Below are positions 43,163-54,362 of a DNA stretch of 64,000 nt, in pieces. The DNA is from an uncultured Granulosicoccaceae bacterium (lineage in GTDB: Bacteria; Pseudomonadota; Gammaproteobacteria; Granulosicoccales; Granulosicoccaceae). The notes under the pieces are model-generated. The model was not told the DNA's origin. It saw only the letters and a program-made list of their open reading frames with translations, and did no database searches. The stretch spans positions 1-64,000 of the forward strand of contig CALKXD010000147.1 of NCBI GenBank assembly GCA_938003855.1, read 5' to 3'. The stretch's first letter is position 1, and every line of letters starts with the position of its first letter. A program made the translations under genes and the position numbers.

Positions 43163-46100
43163 ATGTCGATAAAAAAAATTGTTGTTAAAAATGCCACCCA
43201 GAACAACCTGAAGAATCTCGACCTGGAGATTTCACACGGTGAACTGGTGGTGATTACCGGTGTCAGCGGATCTGGTAAATCGTCACTGGCGTTCGACACC
43301 ATCTATGCCGAAGGTCAGCGCCGCTATGTGGAAACCTTCAGCCCTTACGCCAGACAGTTTCTTGATCGCATGGACAAACCGCAGGTCGACCGCATCACCG
43401 GTATCCCACCTGCAATTGCCGTCGATCAGACCAATCCGGTGCGTACCTCCCGCTCGACCGTCGGCACCATGACCGAGTTGAACGACCACCTTAAGTTACT
43501 GTTTGCCCGCGCGGCCAATCTGCACTGCCCGGGTTGTGGCAGGCAAGTGATACGTGAGTCGCCCGAGCATGTAGCCAAAGAGTTAATCACCGCCGCCGGC
43601 AAAGACAGCAGAGCGCTGATCACATTCAAGGTAAAAGTTCCGGCCAACTTTGACGCTGATGAAATCGAAGGCTGGCTGCAACGACAGGGTTACACGCGCC
43701 TGCATAAACGCCAGCCAGATGCCATAGAAGTGATACAGGACAGAGTTCGCGTTAGCGCAGAAAATACCGGCAGAATAACGGAAGCACTGGAGGCGGCATT
43801 CAAGCACGGCAGCGGCACAGCCACTGTCTATTCACTTGACGCTGATCGAAAACCCGGTCGTGGTAAAAAATTCTCCGGCGATTTTGTCTGCGCCACCTGC
43901 GACACCCGATTCCGGCAACCGGTACCAAGCCTGTTCAGCTTTAACTCCCCGATGGGTGCTTGCGAGGCATGTCGCGGGTTCGGGCGTACAATGGGTATCG
44001 ACTATGGTCTGGTGGTTCCAAATGAATCACTGACACTGGCCGGCGGCGCAGTCAAACCCTGGCAAACCAAAACCAACGAAATCTGCCAGAAAGACTTACT
44101 CAAATACGCCAAAAAACACGATGTACCCACAGACGTGCCATGGAAAAATCTGTCACGTAAACACCAGAAATGGGTCCTGCAGGGCGATGGTGAATGGGAC
44201 GGCAAGCATTGGTATGGAGTGCAGCGCTTTTTCGACTGGCTGGAAACCCGCAGCTACAAAATGCACGTACGTGTGTTGTTGTCGAAATACCGCTCCTACA
44301 CACCGTGCGAAACCTGCGACGGTGCCCGACTAAAACCCGAGGCCTTATGGTGGAGGCTCGGCTCCACCGCCAACGCGAAAGCAGTATTAACACCCGCAGA
44401 TAGATTCGTACCACGCAGCAACACACTGGCAACATCCAGATTTCAAAAACTACCGGGCCTGCTGTTGCACGATGTGATGCAGTTACCGCTCAGCACATGC
44501 GCCGAGTTTTTTGCCAGCCTGGAACTCGCCAAACCAATCGACGAGGCGACCACTCTGCTGCTCGACGAAATTTGCACCCGACTCCGCTATCTGTGTGAAG
44601 TCGGCTTGAGCTACCTGACACTGGACCGACAGTCCCGAACCCTCAGTGGCGGTGAAGTCCAGCGGATCAACCTCACCACCGCACTCGGTACCTCTTTAGT
44701 TAATACGCTTTTTGTGCTGGACGAACCCAGCATCGGTCTGCACCCCAGGGACATTGATCGAGTCATCGGTGTGCTACAGCGCCTGCGCGACTCGGGCAAT
44801 ACACTTGTCGTTGTTGAGCACGACCCGCAAATCATTCTGGCTGCTGACAAGGTTATCGATATGGGGCCGGGACCGGGCAGCGCCGGCGGCGACATTACCT
44901 ACTACGGCAATACAACAAAGCTCGCATCAGCAAAAAAATCACTCACTGCAGACTATCTAAACGGCACTAAAAAACTGCAACGACGACAGCGCATAACCCG
45001 CACGACCGCTAAAGCGCCGCAGATGCTGACTCTAAAAGAGGCGAGTGAAAACAACCTGCAGGGCATCACCGTTGAATTCCCTTTGCAGCAACTGGTGTGT
45101 GTCACCGGGGTCAGCGGGTCGGGAAAATCGACACTGGTACAAGACACGTTGCACCGGGCACTGTGTCGCGCATTAGGCAAGCCCACCGAGATCGCCGGCG
45201 TGCATAAATCACTGTCCGGGGTAAAGCACATTGACGATGTTGTACTGGTCGATCAATCGCCTATTGGAAAATCAGCACGTTCGAATCCAGTGAGCTATAC
45301 CGGAGCTTTTGATGGCATCCGCAATCAGTTTGCCCTGGACCCTGAATCCAAACGACGCGGTTACACCGGCAGTAGCTTCAGTTTTAATTCAGGCATGCGT
45401 TGCCCGAGCTGCTCGGGCAACGGCTTTGAACACGTTGAAATGCAGTTTCTCAGTGATGTCTATATACGTTGCCATGCATGCAACGGCAGCCGGTATCGCG
45501 ATGAAGTCCTTGATATAAAACTGGTGCACCCGACGAAAAACGAGGCTTTTAATATTGCTGAAATATTAGCAATGACCATTGATGATGCGGTGGAGTTTTT
45601 CATTGACCACAAAGACATCAACAAAGCGCTGGCGCCGTTAATTTCGGTGGGGCTTGGCTATCTGACCCTCGGCCAGCCGGTGCCCACCCTCAGCGGTGGT
45701 GAGGCGCAGCGACTTAAACTGGCTGCCCATTTGGCAAAAGCTAAAAAAGCATCAAAAAATGCCAGTGAGAAAAAACTGTTTCTGTTCGACGAACCGACTA
45801 CCGGGCTGCACTTCGACGATATCGCCAAGCTGCTCGACGCACTCGAACAACTACTCGACGACGGACACTCAGTAATCGTCGTTGAGCACAATCTCGACAT
45901 CATCAGCAATGCCGACTGGATTATAGATCTTGGTCCGGAAGGTGGCACACACGGCGGTCAGCTACTGGACTGCGGCAACCAGGACACACTGGTCGCCAAC
46001 AAAAAAAGTCACACCGGCCGCGCACTGCGGGAGTACGCACAAGCTTTGAATGAGTTTGCCCGGGCGGCCAACGTTGCAGAAACCACAGGCGGACGCCAGC

Positions 46101-48721
46101 TCGTGGCAGAGTCCCGTAACAGCTACGACGCCAACAGCATCAGTGTGATCAATGCCCGCGAGCACAACCTGAAAAATATCGATGTACAGGTACCGCGCGA
46201 TAAATTCACCGTCATCACCGGCTTGAGCGGCAGTGGCAAGAGCACGCTGGCATTCGATATTCTTTTTAAAGAGGGACAGAGACGCTATCTGGAATCTCTG
46301 AATGCCTACGCACGGCAATTTGTACAGCCGGCCTCACGCCCCGATGTCGATGCGATTTACGGTATTCCCCCGACCGTTGCAATAGAACAGAGAACCAGCC
46401 GTGGCGGGCGCAAGAGTACCGTGGCCACGATGACCGAGATTTATCACTTTCTGCGCCTGCTGTTCGTCAAGCTGGGCACTCAGCACTGTCCTGACTGCGG
46501 CACAGCAATCACAGCACAATCACTCGAGAGCATTCAGGCACAGGTGAGCAAAGACTGGAAAGGCAAAACGGTCGTCATCCATGCTCCGCTAATTGTGGCA
46601 CGCAAAGGCTACTACACCGATCTAGCAAAATGGGCCGGCGGCAAGGGCTTTGACACACTCCGGGTCGATGGCGAAAATCTACCTACAGAGAACTGGCCTC
46701 GTCTTGATCGCTTCACAGAGCACGACATCGATCTGCCGGTAGGTCGTGTCGCAGTTTCAAACAAGACAGAGGCAAAGTTACTGGAACTATTGCAACGCGC
46801 ACTGGATTACGGCAAGGGTGTGTTGAAAATAGACATTGAAAAAAGTAGCCGCGCCAGTCGCGGGAAATCTAAAACTGAAAAGCTGTTTTCAATCAAGCGC
46901 GCCTGCCTGAGCTGCGAGAGCAGCTTCCCTGAACTGGACCCGCGTCTGTTCTCCTATAACTCCAAGCACGGCTGGTGTGACAGCTGCTTTGGCACTGGTG
47001 TTTACGCACCGGAATTTGACGAAGAGCAAACCGGAGAAGAAAAAGACTGGCTGGAGAACGACAACACCATCAGTGCATGCCCGCAATGTGAAGGTCAGAG
47101 GCTCAACCCTGTGGCGTTAGCGGTACGCTACGAAAAACTGAGCATCGCGCAACTTAACAATTTATCGATCGAAGCCGCGACAACCTGGTTTGACAAACTC
47201 AAACCAGGCGGACGCGAGGTCGATATCGCACGTGATATTCTTAAAGAGATACGCTCGCGCCTGCACTTTCTGCAAAAGGTTGGACTGACCTACCTGACAC
47301 TGGACCGGGCAGCACCTTCACTGAGTGGCGGCGAAGCACAACGCATACGGCTAGCCTCACAGCTCGGCTCTAATCTGCAAGGCGTGTGCTATATCCTCGA
47401 TGAACCAACCATAGGCCTGCATGCCCGCGACAACCGGATGTTGCTCGATACACTCGACAGCCTCAGAAGCCATGGCAATACGGTGGTGGTGGTTGAACAC
47501 GATGAGGACACCATCAGGCGTGCCGACCATGTTATTGATATCGGGCCGGGTGCCGGTATCGAGGGTGGTCAGATCGTCGCCCGCGGCACACTAAAGCAGC
47601 TGATGAAAAACAGCGACTCAGTAACCGGTAGAGCACTGTCTGCGCCATTAGTACATCCATTATTCCCACCGCGCAAAGTAGACTACGGCTGGATCAATAT
47701 TAAGGGCGCCAGCCTGCATAATCTAAAAAATATCGATGCCCGGCTTCCGATAGGTAAGCTCAGTTGCGTCACCGGGGTGTCCGGCAGTGGTAAAAGCACA
47801 TTGGTGCGATCAGTACTCGGTGACAACCTGAAGCTACTGCTTCAGGATACTAAAAAGGCAAAACGCAAAAAGCCACTCGGGTGCAAGAGCATCGACGGAT
47901 GGAATGTGATATCACGAGTACTTGAGGTCGATCAAACCCCGATTGGCAAAACACCCCGCTCTTGTCCGGCCACCTATATCGGCTTCTGGGACAACATCAG
48001 ACGCATTTTTGCAGACGCTACCGAAGCTAGAATTCGCGGCTATACCGCCAGTCGATTTTCGTTTAACGTCAGCGCAGGGCGCTGTGCCAGTTGTGAAGGC
48101 CAGGGCATGACGCGGATCGAAATGAATTTCCTGCCTGATGTCAGGGTGCCCTGTGACACTTGCAATGGCGCACGATTTAATTCAGAAACGCAAAGTGTGT
48201 TGTACAAGGGCAAATCCATAGGCGACGTTCTATCCATGAGTATAGATGTTGCCGTGGAGTTCTTTGTTGCGCACAAAAACATACACCATCCGCTGCAACT
48301 ACTAAAAGATGTCGGGCTTGGCTATCTGACGCTGGGACAACCCAGCCCGACGCTTTCGGGCGGTGAAGCACAGCGTATAAAGCTTGTCTCAGAACTCGCC
48401 AAAGCGGGCACCGGTAAAGAAGAACGCAGAGGACGAAAACTCAACCATACTCTCTACGTGCTGGACGAACCCACAGTAGGATTGCATATGGCAGATGTGG
48501 CAAAACTGATTCAGGTACTGCACCGACTGGTTGAATCGGGCAATACCGTTATTCTGGTTGAACACAATCTGGATTTAATGGCCAACGCCGACTGGATACT
48601 TGATATGGGCCCGGAAGGTGGTTCCGGTGGCGGGCGCATTGTTGCACGCGGGCAACCGGCAAAAATTGCCAAATCCAAAACCTCCCGCACTGCACCATTT
48701 CTACAACGACTTCTTACTTGA
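43163..48721 (+). CDS. uvrA: Tandem-fused UvrA (two UvrA units in one chain)
   Basis: This 1852-aa protein contains two complete UvrA-like units joined by a linker near residues 955-985. Normal UvrA is about 940 aa and acts as a homodimer in nucleotide excision repair. Four Walker A motifs are seen: GVSGSGKSS (33), GVSGSGKST (about 650), GLSGSGKST (about 1017) and GVSGSGKST (about 1537), each with an LSGGE signature and a DEPT/DEPS Walker B. Zinc-finger cysteines recur (CPGCG, CATC..CEAC, CPSC..CHAC, CPDCG, CLSC..CDSC, CASC..CDTC). It would work as a built-in pseudo-dimer. Whether it replaces or supplements a standard UvrA is unknown. It is the first gene of a plus-strand run to coxE. Confidence 0.9.
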   Translation: MSIKKIVVKNATQNNLKNLDLEISHGELVVITGVSGSGKSSLAFDTIYAEGQRRYVETFSPYARQFLDRMDKPQVDRITGIPPAIAVDQTNPVRTSRSTVGTMTELNDHLKLLFARAANLHCPGCGRQVIRESPEHVAKELITAAGKDSRALITFKVKVPANFDADEIEGWLQRQGYTRLHKRQPDAIEVIQDRVRVSAENTGRITEALEAAFKHGSGTATVYSLDADRKPGRGKKFSGDFVCATCDTRFRQPVPSLFSFNSPMGACEACRGFGRTMGIDYGLVVPNESLTLAGGAVKPWQTKTNEICQKDLLKYAKKHDVPTDVPWKNLSRKHQKWVLQGDGEWDGKHWYGVQRFFDWLETRSYKMHVRVLLSKYRSYTPCETCDGARLKPEALWWRLGSTANAKAVLTPADRFVPRSNTLATSRFQKLPGLLLHDVMQLPLSTCAEFFASLELAKPIDEATTLLLDEICTRLRYLCEVGLSYLTLDRQSRTLSGGEVQRINLTTALGTSLVNTLFVLDEPSIGLHPRDIDRVIGVLQRLRDSGNTLVVVEHDPQIILAADKVIDMGPGPGSAGGDITYYGNTTKLASAKKSLTADYLNGTKKLQRRQRITRTTAKAPQMLTLKEASENNLQGITVEFPLQQLVCVTGVSGSGKSTLVQDTLHRALCRALGKPTEIAGVHKSLSGVKHIDDVVLVDQSPIGKSARSNPVSYTGAFDGIRNQFALDPESKRRGYTGSSFSFNSGMRCPSCSGNGFEHVEMQFLSDVYIRCHACNGSRYRDEVLDIKLVHPTKNEAFNIAEILAMTIDDAVEFFIDHKDINKALAPLISVGLGYLTLGQPVPTLSGGEAQRLKLAAHLAKAKKASKNASEKKLFLFDEPTTGLHFDDIAKLLDALEQLLDDGHSVIVVEHNLDIISNADWIIDLGPEGGTHGGQLLDCGNQDTLVANKKSHTGRALREYAQALNEFARAANVAETTGGRQLVAESRNSYDANSISVINAREHNLKNIDVQVPRDKFTVITGLSGSGKSTLAFDILFKEGQRRYLESLNAYARQFVQPASRPDVDAIYGIPPTVAIEQRTSRGGRKSTVATMTEIYHFLRLLFVKLGTQHCPDCGTAITAQSLESIQAQVSKDWKGKTVVIHAPLIVARKGYYTDLAKWAGGKGFDTLRVDGENLPTENWPRLDRFTEHDIDLPVGRVAVSNKTEAKLLELLQRALDYGKGVLKIDIEKSSRASRGKSKTEKLFSIKRACLSCESSFPELDPRLFSYNSKHGWCDSCFGTGVYAPEFDEEQTGEEKDWLENDNTISACPQCEGQRLNPVALAVRYEKLSIAQLNNLSIEAATTWFDKLKPGGREVDIARDILKEIRSRLHFLQKVGLTYLTLDRAAPSLSGGEAQRIRLASQLGSNLQGVCYILDEPTIGLHARDNRMLLDTLDSLRSHGNTVVVVEHDEDTIRRADHVIDIGPGAGIEGGQIVARGTLKQLMKNSDSVTGRALSAPLVHPLFPPRKVDYGWINIKGASLHNLKNIDARLPIGKLSCVTGVSGSGKSTLVRSVLGDNLKLLLQDTKKAKRKKPLGCKSIDGWNVISRVLEVDQTPIGKTPRSCPATYIGFWDNIRRIFADATEARIRGYTASRFSFNVSAGRCASCEGQGMTRIEMNFLPDVRVPCDTCNGARFNSETQSVLYKGKSIGDVLSMSIDVAVEFFVAHKNIHHPLQLLKDVGLGYLTLGQPSPTLSGGEAQRIKLVSELAKAGTGKEERRGRKLNHTLYVLDEPTVGLHMADVAKLIQVLHRLVESGNTVILVEHNLDLMANADWILDMGPEGGSGGGRIVARGQPAKIAKSKTSRTAPFLQRLLT

Positions 48722-48738
48722 GTACGGCACTATCCGGT

Positions 48739-49902
48739 ATGGCTAACCCAGTCAAACAGAGCACAATAAACAGCGCGAGGCTCAATCTGCGGCCGTTTCA
48801 ATGGTCGGACAAAAGCAGCGTCGAAAACCTGATCGCGGACCCGGCACTCACTGAGCAAACCAACAAGCTGTTGCATCCCTTCACGAATCAGCAGGTATCG
48901 AGCTGGCTGATGTCGCATGAGTCTATGTTCAAGCAACGGCTCAAAGCCAGCTGGGCGATTACCCTCAGGGACAACTCACCGCCGATCGGCTGTATCACAT
49001 TAACTTTCTCCAACGACTCAAACTCGGCGGAGGTAGGCTACTGGCTGGGTACCGATTACTGGCAGCGAGGCTACGCTACCGAAGCCTGCAATACCGTCGT
49101 GCAACATGCTATGGACGATCTGTCAGTCAATCGCATCTTCGCCTTTGTGCTGCCGGGCAATACCGCCTCGTTCAGGGTGCTGGAAAAATGCGGGCTGGTT
49201 GTCGAGGGCACATCGAAATCAATATTTTTTTTCAACAACCGCTACCAGGATGCGACGCTACTCGCGCGGGTATCCGGCAACAAGCCTCATCCGGACGCAC
49301 CGCAAAATGCCCTCGATGTCCTGCCGCTCGGCCATCCTCAGTTACTGCAGACAGCCAGCGCGGTTGAGCCGGGCACCATTGCCACCCCGGAGTTTCAGCA
49401 GTTGGTCGATCAATTGATTGACACACTTAGACACTTTGACTGCATGGAGCTCAGCGCTGTGCAACTGGGCCAGCCACTACAGCTACTCGCCATCGAAGTA
49501 AGCAACACGCTCTATCAACCGTATCGCGAAGAACTGCCACTGATCATTGCGATCAATCCGACCCTTGAAATTCTGAGTGATAATTTCTTCAATTACTACG
49601 ACAGCTGCATCTCGGTACCGGGCATGGTTGCCAACGTGCAGCGACCGGCTGAAATTCAGTTATCCGCGCTTGACCGGCATGGAGAGCCCTTTACGCTGAC
49701 CATCAGCGGTATTTCTGCTGCATTGATACATCATGCCTGGGAACATCTGCAGGGCAGACTCTTCACTGACCATCTGACCGACATCAGCGCACTGATCAGC
49801 CAACGCTATTTCCACCAGTATATCGAGGCCGACTATCGATTCTCTATGCTGCAACTCAAGCGACGGTATCGACAACCACTGGTTGCCGGAGACCCGGCTT
49901 AG
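48739..49902 (+). CDS. Fusion of GNAT acetyltransferase and degenerate peptide-deformylase-like domain
   Basis: This protein of about 387 aa has two parts. Residues 10-180 are a RimJ-like GNAT domain (INSARLNLRPFQWSD, YWLGTDYWQRGYATEA, NTASFRVLEKCGLVVEG). Residues 200-370 resemble peptide deformylase: CMELSAVQLGQP replaces the GxGLAAxQ motif, DSCISVPG (C290) replaces EGCLS, and HHAWEHL (H332, H336) replaces QHEIDHL. The three metal ligands remain but the catalytic Glu of HExxH is Ala333, so deformylase activity is doubtful. Function of the pair is unknown; a role at protein N-termini is an inference from both families. The open frame starts with a TTG overlapping the uvrA stop; the ATG at 48739 is preferred. 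Confidence 0.8.
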   Translation: MANPVKQSTINSARLNLRPFQWSDKSSVENLIADPALTEQTNKLLHPFTNQQVSSWLMSHESMFKQRLKASWAITLRDNSPPIGCITLTFSNDSNSAEVGYWLGTDYWQRGYATEACNTVVQHAMDDLSVNRIFAFVLPGNTASFRVLEKCGLVVEGTSKSIFFFNNRYQDATLLARVSGNKPHPDAPQNALDVLPLGHPQLLQTASAVEPGTIATPEFQQLVDQLIDTLRHFDCMELSAVQLGQPLQLLAIEVSNTLYQPYREELPLIIAINPTLEILSDNFFNYYDSCISVPGMVANVQRPAEIQLSALDRHGEPFTLTISGISAALIHHAWEHLQGRLFTDHLTDISALISQRYFHQYIEADYRFSMLQLKRRYRQPLVAGDPA

Positions 49903-49953
49903 CCGTAGTGTAGGCACCAGCTCCGGAAAACCACGATTAGCGAACCACCACCG

Positions 49954-50946
49954 ATGAAAAACAGCGATACCGAAGTACTTTCTCAGGCTATTGAGTGGCT
50001 CGACCAGGGACACCAGGTTGAGCTTATCACCGTGGCAAGAACCTGGGGCTCCTCACCACGCCCCCCGGGTTCGCTTGCAGCGGTTCGCGAAGATGGACAT
50101 CTGGTCGGTTCGGTGTCCGGTGGCTGCATAGAAAAACAACTGGCTATACGTATAGACAATGACAATCGCAGCACCTCATTCGCCCATGAAATAAGCAACG
50201 AAGAAGCAAAAAAATTCGGCCTGCCCTGCGGCGGGCAACTGGAACTTGTCTTCGAAGCACTAAGTAACTCAAGCGAGCTGTCCAGAGTACTCGAGCTGGT
50301 CTCAGAGCGAAAACGCATCGCACGTACCATTACCCTGGATACCGCTGAAACAACCCTGGTCGAGGTAGACCGCCACACCGATTTCCAATTCAACGGCACC
50401 CACCTGCGCAAAGTATTTGGCCCCGGTTGGCGGATGCTGCTGATCGGCGGTGGCCAGCTGTCACGTTATGTTGCCCAGTTTGCTCAGGCACTCGACTACG
50501 AGATTATTGTGTGCGAACCACGCGCCGAGTTTTCCAGTAGCTGGAGTGTGCCGAATTGTACGATCACGACCCTGCTGCCGGACGAAGCTGTGCTGAAGTA
50601 TGCAACCGATCAACACAGCGTGGTGCTGGCACTGACCCACGACCCTAACCTCGACGACTCGGCACTGATTGAGGCCCTGCCCTCTGAGGCATTTTTTGTC
50701 GGGGCACTCGGGTCGCAGGCAAACAACGACCGACGCCGCAAACGGCTGGTCGGCATTGGCGTCGACCAGGAACACACCAATCGACTGCATGGCCCGGTGG
50801 GATTGCCAATTGGCAGCCGCAGCGCAGCGGAAATTGCGGTGTCGATCGTCGCAGAACTTGTCCAGCTACGCAATTCAGGCGACCTGGCCAACCGACGCTC
50901 ACAACGCGCCACCGCACCGTCATCCGACCCAATCCACGTAAGCTAA
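49954..50946 (+). CDS. XdhC/CoxI family molybdoenzyme maturation factor
   Basis: This 330-aa protein belongs to the XdhC family, which binds molybdenum cofactor and aids its sulfuration for insertion into xanthine-dehydrogenase-type enzymes. The N-terminal domain has the pattern VARTWGSSPRPPGSLAAV and GSVSGGCIE; the C-terminal Rossmann domain has MLLIGGGQLSRYVAQFAQ and FVGALGSQANNDRRRKRL. No large molybdenum hydroxylase gene lies next to it. It precedes a Rieske oxygenase and cox-like genes on the same strand. Confidence 0.88.
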   Translation: MKNSDTEVLSQAIEWLDQGHQVELITVARTWGSSPRPPGSLAAVREDGHLVGSVSGGCIEKQLAIRIDNDNRSTSFAHEISNEEAKKFGLPCGGQLELVFEALSNSSELSRVLELVSERKRIARTITLDTAETTLVEVDRHTDFQFNGTHLRKVFGPGWRMLLIGGGQLSRYVAQFAQALDYEIIVCEPRAEFSSSWSVPNCTITTLLPDEAVLKYATDQHSVVLALTHDPNLDDSALIEALPSEAFFVGALGSQANNDRRRKRLVGIGVDQEHTNRLHGPVGLPIGSRSAAEIAVSIVAELVQLRNSGDLANRRSQRATAPSSDPIHVS

Positions 50947-51028
50947 CGCAATACTATTCGCCACCAGCCACTTTATATTATATTCCCACCTGAACACTCT
51001 ATTGATCGCACCCCGTGAGTACACCAGC

Positions 51029-52192
51029 ATGAACACACGCCGTCCTGTAGAAGAAGCCCTGCAACGAGTGCATTTGCCGATCGAATCGGCAAGCGGCCTG
51101 CCCAATAGTTGTTATACCGAGCACAGTGCCTTCGAGCAGGACAGAGACACCGTTATCGCCCCGAGCTGGACCTGCATCGGCTTTGGCACCGATGTACCAG
51201 TCAACTGGGCAGTGCCGGTTGACCTGATGGGCTACCCTCTGTTGATCACCCGGGACAAAGCTGGAACTGTGCGGGTTTTTCATAACGTTTGCAGCCACCG
51301 CGGCATGAAACTGGTGCCCGAAGCCGGCAAGCTCGGCACCGGTTTGATTCGGTGTAAATACCACAGCTGGGCTTATGATTTCAGCGGTGAACTGATCGGC
51401 ACCCCATCGCTTGGCGGGGCAGACATCAACGAGCACAAAGATTTTGATCCAACCGTCAATGGCCTGAAACCGATCCGAAGCACCGTCTGGATGGACAATA
51501 TATTTATTAACCTGAGCAATAGCGGTGAGTCGTTCGATGAATTCCTTGCCCCGTTGATGCAGCATTGGAGCAAATGGGTCACGGCCGAGTCACTGAATGA
51601 GTTCAAACCAGCAGCCACACACGGCAAGCTGGAGCTGGTCGTAAAGAGCAACTGGAAACTTGCCATTGAAAATTTTCTTGAAGCCTACCACCTGCCGTGG
51701 GTGCACCCGGGGCTGAACAGCTACTCACCATTGTCACAGCACTACGATATCGAAAGAGGACAAAATTTCAGTGGCCAGGGCTCCAGCAGCTATACATCAC
51801 CAGCGGGTGCTGACGGCAATCTAAGTACATGGCCCAAGGAACAACTGAAATACGCCGAATACCCGGTGCTGTACCCCAACACGCTGTTAGGCTTGCAGTC
51901 GGATCATTTTTTTACCATGACTATCCTACCGCTCAGTGAAACCGAATCACTAGAACGCGTACAACTTTTGTTTCTTGGCGATGTTGCGGATGCAGACACA
52001 CACGAATCACACCGGCAATCAATACTGGAGGGTTGGCGTGAGGTATTTAGCGAGGACATCTTCGCCGTCGAAGGCATGCAGCAGGGGCGCAGTTCTCCCG
52101 CCTATCAAGGCGGAGTATTTTCCCCTGTGATGGACCAGCACACGCTGCACTTTCATCAGTGGGTTGCCAACCGCTTCGCCAACGGCTTGTGA
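51029..52192 (+). CDS. Rieske non-heme iron oxygenase, alpha subunit
   Basis: This protein of about 387 aa is an aromatic-ring or amine hydroxylating oxygenase alpha subunit. The Rieske 2Fe-2S ligands are C88, H90, C109 and H112 (NVCSHRG ... IRCKYHSWAY). The mononuclear iron site lies in NWKLAIENFLEAYHLPWVHPGL. The type is close to the one-component-alpha group that includes glycine-betaine and carnitine monooxygenases; substrate cannot be assigned. No reductase gene is adjacent. The ATG at 51029 is chosen over a TTG at 51002. Confidence 0.87.
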   Translation: MNTRRPVEEALQRVHLPIESASGLPNSCYTEHSAFEQDRDTVIAPSWTCIGFGTDVPVNWAVPVDLMGYPLLITRDKAGTVRVFHNVCSHRGMKLVPEAGKLGTGLIRCKYHSWAYDFSGELIGTPSLGGADINEHKDFDPTVNGLKPIRSTVWMDNIFINLSNSGESFDEFLAPLMQHWSKWVTAESLNEFKPAATHGKLELVVKSNWKLAIENFLEAYHLPWVHPGLNSYSPLSQHYDIERGQNFSGQGSSSYTSPAGADGNLSTWPKEQLKYAEYPVLYPNTLLGLQSDHFFTMTILPLSETESLERVQLLFLGDVADADTHESHRQSILEGWREVFSEDIFAVEGMQQGRSSPAYQGGVFSPVMDQHTLHFHQWVANRFANGL

Positions 52193-52293
52193 TAGATCGG
52201 CAGGTATTGATCGCTATCGCTGTGGTCACATTGGAAGAACCGCGCCGGCCGCCATTCCTACGCGCCCTCCAGACGTCGAGATTATAGAGTTCC

Positions 52294-53175
52294 ATGCAAG
52301 AAATTAATATCCTTCAGACAGCGCTCCGCAATGCCGGCTATATCGCCGATACCGATCTCGCCACTGCGATCCACCTGACCCAGGTATTGCAGCGCCCGCT
52401 GCTGCTCGAAGGCGATGCCGGCGTCGGCAAAACAGCGGTCGCGCAAGCCATGGCTGAAACCCTTCAGCATCAGCTCATACGCTTACAGTGCTACGAAGGC
52501 CTGGACGTCAACACGGCACTGTACGAGTGGAACTACCAGCGTCAGTTAATGGCCGTCAGACTGCATGAAAAAGACTCCGCCAGCCAAAGCACCATCGAAG
52601 CGGAAATATTCAGCCGTGACTACCTCTTGCCACGCCCGTTGCTGCAGGCCATCAGCACCACTCAGCCGGCGCTACTGCTGATAGACGAAATCGATCGCGC
52701 CGATGATGAATTTGAAGCCTTCCTGCTTGAGTTACTGGCCGACTTCCAAATCACCATTCCCGAGATTGGCACCATCAAAGCCGTGCACAAACCTACCGTG
52801 ATACTCACCTCCAACGCCACACGCGACCTGAGTGATGCGCTGAGACGGCGTTGCCTCTACCACTTTGTCGATTACCCCGGCAAGCACAAGGAACTGCAGA
52901 TACTCAACACGCAGTTGCCGGACCTCGACCGGCAACTGGCGTCTTCTATTGTGGATTTTGTACAGAAAATACGACAGGAGCATCTTAAAAAGATCCCCGG
53001 CGTTGCCGAGACACTCGACTGGGCAACCGCTTTGATGCACCTGGACACCACCGACCTTGACCACTCGTTGCCGCAGGTTGAAGCCACCTTGAGCTGCCTG
53101 CTAAAGACCCGCGCAGACCGGGAATTAGCCACCACCGAGTGGTTGAAAAAGATCACCCGGCCCGAAACAACCTGA
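52294..53175 (+). CDS. MoxR/CoxD-type AAA+ ATPase
   Basis: This 293-aa AAA+ protein has Walker A LLEGDAGVGKTAVAQAMA and Walker B LLLIDEIDRADDEFEAFLLELL, then the sensor 1 sequence VILTSNATRDLSDALRRRC. It fits the MoxR family, most like CoxD of CO-dehydrogenase clusters, which with CoxE acts on the Mo-Cu active site. It is six bases upstream of the VWA gene, the canonical MoxR/VWA partner pair. Confidence 0.88.
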   Translation: MQEINILQTALRNAGYIADTDLATAIHLTQVLQRPLLLEGDAGVGKTAVAQAMAETLQHQLIRLQCYEGLDVNTALYEWNYQRQLMAVRLHEKDSASQSTIEAEIFSRDYLLPRPLLQAISTTQPALLLIDEIDRADDEFEAFLLELLADFQITIPEIGTIKAVHKPTVILTSNATRDLSDALRRRCLYHFVDYPGKHKELQILNTQLPDLDRQLASSIVDFVQKIRQEHLKKIPGVAETLDWATALMHLDTTDLDHSLPQVEATLSCLLKTRADRELATTEWLKKITRPETT

Positions 53176-53180
53176 CCACA

Positions 53181-54362
53181 ATGACGACCCTAAAGGCCAA
53201 TGCCACCGGCGACCCGGTGTCGATCATCAGACGACGGCTCACCGTCTTTGTCGAGCATTTGCGACTGAATGGCTTCGAAATCACGGCCAACGACATATCC
53301 ACCGCACACGCACTGTTCTGCACCCCGTATCTGTACGACCGGAAATACACGCGCTCCTCACTGCGCGCCGTTTTCTGTAAATCAAAAAGTAACTGGAAGG
53401 ACTTCAGCGCGCTGTTCAACGGCTACTGGCTGATGGGTATCGAGCCAGAAGATGTGCACATGGAATACCAGTCAGCGACAAGCGGAGGAGGAGCGTCAGG
53501 CCTGTCTTACTTCTCCGAATCAGAAGCGCAAAACACAGCAACGGAGGCCAACAAAGCTGACACCGTCGATACAACAAGCGGTGGTGCAAGCGATGCCAGA
53601 GTACTTGCCCAGCGGGATTTCAGATTCGTATTCAATGCAAACGATATGCGCAACGTCGAACACCTGGTCGATGATCTGGCACGCCAGGTTCAACGGCGCA
53701 CCCGCCGTCGCACGCAAAGCTCCCGTAAAAAAGGCCGGCTCGATCCGCGCAACATCACCAGAAAAAACCTCGGCCATGGCGGCTGGCCATTTGAACTGAG
53801 CTTTCAACGCAAGCGCAAAACACCGGCACGGTTTTTACTGTTGCTTGACGTCAGCCAGTCGATGGAAATATACAGTTACCTGTTTCTACGCTTCGCGCGC
53901 GGCCTGCTGCAGGCTTTCTCCGACACCGATGCTTACGCGTTTCATACCGACTTAGTCCACATCGGCAGCGAATTGAAAGATAAAAACACCAACAGGCTAG
54001 AAGCAAAGATGAAAGATCTTTCCAGTGGCTGGCTTGGCGGCACCCGCATAGCAGATTCGCTTACCGAGTTTAACCAGCAGTACGCACAACGCGCGGTGAA
54101 TCGACACACCATCGCATTTATCTTCAGCGACGGCTACGACAGCAGCGAACCCGAGCACCTGGTCGAGCAGGTACTGTCACTGAAGGAACGTGCGCGTAAA
54201 ATTGTCTGGGTAAACCCGCTTCTGGGTCGCAACACGCAGGCGACCACATCGCTTGCGGTAGATCGGTGTATGGATGCGGTCATTCCCCACCTTGACCTCT
54301 ACACCAGTGCTCACAACCTCAACTCGCTGCGGGAGTTAGGTCCAGCCTTTTCACTGCGCTAG
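53181..54362 (+). CDS. CoxE-like VWA-domain protein
   Basis: This protein of about 393 aa has an N-terminal helical region and a C-terminal von Willebrand factor A domain. The MIDAS motif is LLLDVSQSME (DxSxS), with the threonine in LGGTRIADSL and the aspartate in FIFSDGYDSSE. It matches CoxE/DUF58-type partners of MoxR ATPases. A middle basic stretch (QRRTRRRTQSSRKK) precedes the VWA. The ATG at 53181 follows the CoxD-like stop by five bases; the open frame itself extends upstream and overlaps it. Confidence 0.87.
   Translation: MTTLKANATGDPVSIIRRRLTVFVEHLRLNGFEITANDISTAHALFCTPYLYDRKYTRSSLRAVFCKSKSNWKDFSALFNGYWLMGIEPEDVHMEYQSATSGGGASGLSYFSESEAQNTATEANKADTVDTTSGGASDARVLAQRDFRFVFNANDMRNVEHLVDDLARQVQRRTRRRTQSSRKKGRLDPRNITRKNLGHGGWPFELSFQRKRKTPARFLLLLDVSQSMEIYSYLFLRFARGLLQAFSDTDAYAFHTDLVHIGSELKDKNTNRLEAKMKDLSSGWLGGTRIADSLTEFNQQYAQRAVNRHTIAFIFSDGYDSSEPEHLVEQVLSLKERARKIVWVNPLLGRNTQATTSLAVDRCMDAVIPHLDLYTSAHNLNSLRELGPAFSLR

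Follow-up and report, generated by a model that had tools for sequence, protein, structure and literature searches.

Accessory peptide deformylases (PDFs) are common. A recent survey found that many of them deviate from the catalytic motifs and left their role open; it also describes inactive type 3 PDFs, with changes in motifs I and II, in S. aureus, S. pneumoniae and some protists, and a def-fmt fusion of Exiguobacterium that retains both activities (PMC12690207). Mutants of active enzymes provide a further guide. In B. subtilis DefA, E133A inactivates the catalytic site while inhibition of the kinase PtkA is retained (PMC11194573). In an Arabidopsis enzyme, replacement of the first motif I glycine (G41M or G41Q) lowers kcat/Km about 1000-fold and the enzyme is unable to close (PMC3101196). 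Outside the deformylases, the dead aminopeptidases Tma108 and Ebp1 use their old pocket or a ribosome dock for nascent chains (PMC11266112).

We have analysed a gene that joins a GNAT acetyltransferase domain to an altered PDF domain. It lies in a 64,000-nucleotide stretch of DNA (the window) from an uncultured Granulosicoccaceae bacterium. PDF-fmt fusions and inactive type 3 PDFs have already been described (PMC12690207). For the pairing of a GNAT with a deformylase, dead or otherwise, or for a deformylase pseudoenzyme, we found no description in open-licence full texts, most matches being judged by title and abstract; an earlier note on this DNA likewise knew of no described protein with this pairing. 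The features of the gene and its two neighbours are as follows.

43163..48721, + strand: double-length UvrA, upstream neighbour and left border of the insertion slot
48739..49902, + strand: GNAT–pseudo-peptide-deformylase fusion gene, 387 amino acids, ATG start
48778..49197, + strand: GNAT domain (Acetyltransf_3), residues 14-153 (Pfam 1.3e-31, and alignments)
49273..49314, + strand: linker, residues 179-192, poorly conserved (29% identity to the orthologue)
49315..49782, + strand: pseudo-peptide-deformylase domain, residues 193-348 (Pfam 5.7e-34, AlphaFold2 pLDDT 88.3, Foldseek E 8e-17)
49441..49464, + strand: altered motif I, CMELSAVQ, residues 235-242 (Gly replaced by Glu237, Gln242 retained)
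49600..49614, + strand: altered motif II, DSCIS, residues 288-292 (ligand C290 retained; E288D, G289S, L291I)
49729..49749, + strand: altered motif III, HHAWEHL, residues 331-337 (H332 and H336 retained, catalytic Glu replaced by Ala333, D335E)
49780..49872, + strand: C-terminal helix, residues 348-378, ending in the basic patch LKRRYRQ
49954..50946, + strand: XdhC-like protein, downstream neighbour and right border of the insertion slot

An alternative in-frame TTG at 48718, 21 bases upstream of the ATG, would add seven amino acids. We have taken the ATG at 48739 as the start because the orthologue (see below) also begins at ATG, and the coordinates given in the earlier note, which run from this ATG to the stop, are correct. 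Both domains score well above the Pfam gathering cut-offs: 110.6 bits against 25.4 for Acetyltransf_3 (PF13302) and 117.4 against 22.8 for Pep_deformylase (PF01327). These matches are far beyond chance, and with so significant a PDF similarity the PDF-like C-terminal domain proposed in the note is well founded.

Structural comparison gives the same answer. Among solved structures, the C-terminal half is most closely related to peptide deformylases (best E 1.1e-24). An AlphaFold2 model of this half, built with 54 viral PDFs, has a mean pLDDT of 88.3 and a pTM of 0.79, and a Foldseek search of the PDB with it gave PDFs alone among the 50 matches listed. At their head were the Leptospira enzyme and mitochondrial PDFs of the human type (target TM-scores about 0.75-0.90, E 8e-17); identity to human PDF itself was 36%. 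The predicted structure thus confirms a PDF fold for the C-terminal half. A full-length model built with PDF rows only is reliable in this half and unreliable in the GNAT half. The basic patch that ends the C-terminal helix is preserved in the orthologue by Lys/Arg exchange (LKRRYRQ versus LKRKFKQ). The ribosome-docking contacts of the E. coli enzyme, L149, K150, R153 and K157, correspond to I, S/N, I/L and Y in the fusion and to M, K, R and K in def1, the genome's own deformylase; since these contact residues are not conserved in the fusion, docking on the ribosome in the E. coli manner is unsupported.

The active site was examined by aligning the domain with 66 other PDFs: 12 intact bacterial sequences and 54 from viral contigs, the latter collected with a scan pattern that permitted Ala at the position of the catalytic Glu. 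The alignment confirmed the retained metal ligands C290, H332 and H336 that had been read from the sequence in the earlier note, as well as the note's substitution of Ala for Glu in HExxH. The oxyanion residue Q242 and R302 are also unchanged. Motif III reads HHAWEHL, so that the general-base Glu is Ala333; Ala is absent from this position in all 66 other PDFs. The description of GxGLAAxQ as damaged holds in part. The change from Gly to Glu237 at the third position of motif I is severe (65 of the 66 have Gly and the last has a gap). Human PDF also has the first-position Cys and the Ser, and the Gln of the motif remains. The alteration of motif II (DSCIS for EGCLS) had not been mentioned. In all, the changed positions other than Ala333 are G235C, G237E, E288D, G289S, L291I, Q331H, D335E and Val297, the equivalent of R97. 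This last position is variable across PDFs (def1 of the same genome has Tyr) and Val297 therefore says little about catalysis. The domain also falls below the NCBIfam equivalog/subfamily cut-offs for PDFs, with 100.5 bits against 125 (NF001159) and 78 against 104 (TIGR00079).

The N-terminal half is an apparently working acetyltransferase. All the residues conserved among its relatives in alignments (W108, G111, E115, A116, N141, G152) are present, including the CoA-binding motif residues G111, E115, A116 and N141. Its best relatives among solved structures are PA3944 and other GNATs; MccE is also among the PDB relatives. The 'RimJ-like GNAT' of the earlier note is thus a GNAT, and its likeness to RimJ is loose: it scores 35.5 bits against a cut-off of 184 for the NCBIfam RimL equivalog and 26.3 against 190 for RimJ, and other weak matches below cut-off include the bleomycin acetyltransferases TlmB and BlmB. 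Because this likeness is loose and below cut-off, action of the GNAT on protein N-termini is not established.

A survey across genomes, which the note had proposed together with a check on Ala333, identified the fusion in two of 48 genomes of the family (the same 48 also served for the order), both from one genus. No further fusion, the window's own genome aside, turned up in samples covering the class (369 genomes), the phylum (398) and Nitrospirota (118), at thresholds that very divergent fusions could escape. The Nitrospirota genomes gave single-domain matches only, and one wider contig scan returned relatives with the GNAT only. The second carrier belongs to another species of that genus; its protein is 70% identical, shares the domain architecture and is encoded at the corresponding location. 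Sequencing or assembly error is ruled out by this second species, in which both the architecture and the residues recur. Its motifs are CMELSAGQ, DQCIS and HHATEHL. Ala333 and seven of the other changes (C235, E237, D288, I291, V297, H331, E335) are identical in both carriers, and residue 289 differs. Neither protein has the motifs of an active PDF (HExxH with Glu, EGCLS and GxGLAAxQ), and the only other homologue of the whole fusion that was found thus also lacks an intact HExxH.

Between the two, the GNAT half shows a nonsynonymous difference of 0.170 and a synonymous difference of 0.62; the corresponding values for the PDF half are 0.174 and 0.84, the last near saturation. Since the nonsynonymous differences are equal and the synonymous far larger, purifying selection on the PDF half is as strong as on the GNAT half and the domain is not decaying, a conclusion drawn from one comparison between the two carriers found. 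Selection is therefore keeping the PDF domain, which argues for some role. The linker, in contrast to the two halves, is free to vary, as judged from its 29% identity. A recent accidental fusion, heading for decay and with no function of its own, would fit the narrow distribution (two carriers in one genus) but is very improbable in view of this constraint and of a frame that is open in both species.

The genome of the window also encodes an intact def (def1), adjoining fmt, and an intact second enzyme, PDF2; the second carrier likewise has two intact PDFs. The fusion is therefore not needed for ordinary deformylation, which the def that adjoins fmt carries out for the cell. PDF2, which has an extended C-terminus, is present besides this def in nearly all sampled genomes of the genus and in some relatives. 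Loss of deformylase chemistry in the fusion, as the earlier note had supposed, is well supported by analogy with published mutants: Ala333, fixed in the two carriers, is the counterpart of the substitution in the inactive DefA E133A (PMC11194573). The fusion has not only lost this Glu but also has bulky residues in the motif I loop to which G41 belongs.

The fusion gene occupies the interval between uvrA and xdhC (48722-49953). Direct inspection of this junction in the 12 other sampled genomes of the genus showed that the fusion gene is absent from all 12. The gap is 21-191 bases in nine, and in three a membrane-protein gene (one confirmed as TauE) lies between the borders. The interval is thus a variable slot: empty in nine genomes, with a TauE/SafE-like permease gene in three and with the GNAT–pseudo-PDF gene in two. 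Given its absence from the slot in the 12 other genomes, the gene was most simply gained once. As the slot is variable, the neighbours (the double UvrA on one side and the XdhC, Rieske oxygenase, MoxR and CoxE-like genes on the other) give no hint of function. The UvrA (1852 amino acids, two UvrA units in tandem) adjoins xdhC across the whole of the genus sampled, and is of the tandem kind known from Chlamydia. On the other side, genes for XdhC-like, Rieske ring-hydroxylating oxygenase, MoxR-type AAA ATPase and CoxE-like VWA proteins follow in a row (49954-54362) that resembles a molybdenum-enzyme maturation cluster.

Several possible sources of the gene were considered. In trees, the PDF half belongs neither to the def1 clade nor to the genus-wide PDF2 clade. 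Two of the trees group it with human mitochondrial PDF (support 97/93 and 93/91), a kinship that may reflect long-branch attraction because both branches are long. Derivation from PDF2 is unsupported, the fusion domain lying outside that clade in three trees. No GNAT gene was found within about 1.5 kb of the PDF genes in the relatives inspected, which does not favour an origin from adjacent genes. The plasmids, phages and viral contigs searched contained no full-length match, only weak short repeats were found as traces of mobile elements around the gene, and PADLOC gave no match to a defence system.

The best explanation, to which we assign a probability of roughly 45%, is that the protein is a GNAT acetyltransferase whose C-terminal pseudo-deformylase pocket recognises its substrate. 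By sequence and comparison, the PDF half has kept the PDF fold, the Cys-His-His metal site and the oxyanion Gln, with the catalytic Glu fixed as Ala and a motif I glycine replaced by Glu. With moderate confidence, we infer that the pocket with its metal continues to bind a ligand, in all likelihood the N-terminus of a peptide or a molecule resembling a peptide. The binding module with lost activity suggested in the earlier note is supported in part, the loss of activity more firmly than the binding. That such binding guides or gates the attached GNAT, either by delivering the target to it or by regulating it, so that reader and writer would be combined in one chain, is a weaker, low-confidence suggestion. 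A more specific form is put forward tentatively and has the odds against it: the pseudo-deformylase, in effect an E133A mutant fixed by nature, would bind formyl-Met or another peptide N-terminus, leave it uncleaved, and direct or gate the GNAT. Acetylation of a formylated N-terminus itself is impossible. Were formyl-Met the ligand, the GNAT would have to modify some other group or a different chain, or else the module would be a sensor. Glu237 counts against this explanation since, to judge from the nearby G41M and G41Q mutants, it should hinder the closed, tight-binding state.

The PDF half might instead have no ligand and be simply a spacer or dimerisation unit that stabilises or oligomerises the GNAT. 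Some pseudoenzymes do work through surfaces rather than pockets (PMC11266112), and the inhibition of PtkA by DefA, which does not need the catalytic residue (PMC11194573), is an example from the PDFs themselves. However, an unused pocket is unlikely to have kept every metal ligand and the oxyanion Gln in both carriers, and we consider this alternative unlikely, if still worth weighing.

The same retained residues would equally suit a re-wired hydrolase, in which Glu237, fixed in both carriers where other PDFs have Gly, lies beside the metal as a relocated general base and the domain hydrolyses some amide, perhaps not that of N-formyl-Met. In E. coli PDF, hydroxamate inhibitors make contact with the backbone of this glycine when bound, so that the side chain of Glu237 would be near the metal. 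Against this, we found no earlier example of a PDF with a relocated base, and bulky side chains only two residues earlier (G41M/Q) lower activity about 1000-fold (PMC3101196). We regard this proposal as improbable.

Much the same low likelihood attaches to an antibiotic decoy. Here the pseudo-PDF would capture an actinonin-like PDF inhibitor, which the GNAT would acetylate or sequester, and the real deformylases would be protected. The weak GNAT matches to TlmB and BlmB and the relationship to MccE and PA3944 point in this direction, and reduced susceptibility to PDF inhibitors is a known effect of accessory PDFs (PMC12690207). Nevertheless, there is no resistance context nearby, the R97 equivalent is Val and motif I contains Glu, and R97Y and bulky motif I changes reduce actinonin binding or susceptibility (PMC12690207, PMC3101196).

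If the preferred reading, a pocket that still recognises N-termini, is correct, the fusion would be to prokaryotes what the nascent-chain-binding pseudo-aminopeptidases are to eukaryotes. In this protein nature has fixed what is essentially the biochemists' killing mutation, kept the metal site, added a second enzyme and held the product under selection. This makes a non-catalytic role of a deformylase directly testable in one small protein. The narrow distribution of the fusion limits its general weight.

Among known systems, type 1A PDFs of the human mitochondrial kind (PF01327; HsPDF 3g5k, AtPDF1A, LiPDF 1y6h) share the fold, the metal ligands, the oxyanion Gln and overall sequence with the fusion. 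HsPDF also shares the motif I Cys and Ser, and support for joining it to the fusion domain is moderate to good in two trees. In these trees, built without type 3 reference sequences, the domain resembles type 1A. It differs from type 1A in the Ala for the catalytic Glu, the Glu for a motif I Gly, the altered motif II and its position behind a GNAT. Type 3 PDFs, compared by description, resemble it as accessory homologues with motif I and II substitutions that accompany an active PDF, whereas the fusion has also lost the motif III Glu and has a GNAT attached. The Exiguobacterium def-fmt protein likewise joins a PDF to another enzyme of N-terminal metabolism in genomes that encode an intact PDF as well, but the partner is a formyltransferase and both activities are kept. 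RimJ/RimL/SpeG-like GNATs (Acetyltransf_3; PDB 3fbu, 6edd (PA3944) and 2fck) have the fold family and conserved motifs of the N-terminal half, which differs from them in that every match is below the curated cut-offs of the named substrate classes. Finally, Tma108 and Ebp1 resemble the fusion as dead or possibly dead relatives of N-terminus-processing metalloenzymes and have kept a binding role (PMC11266112). They are, in contrast, eukaryotic, of another fold and without an acetyltransferase, and ribosome association has been shown for them only.
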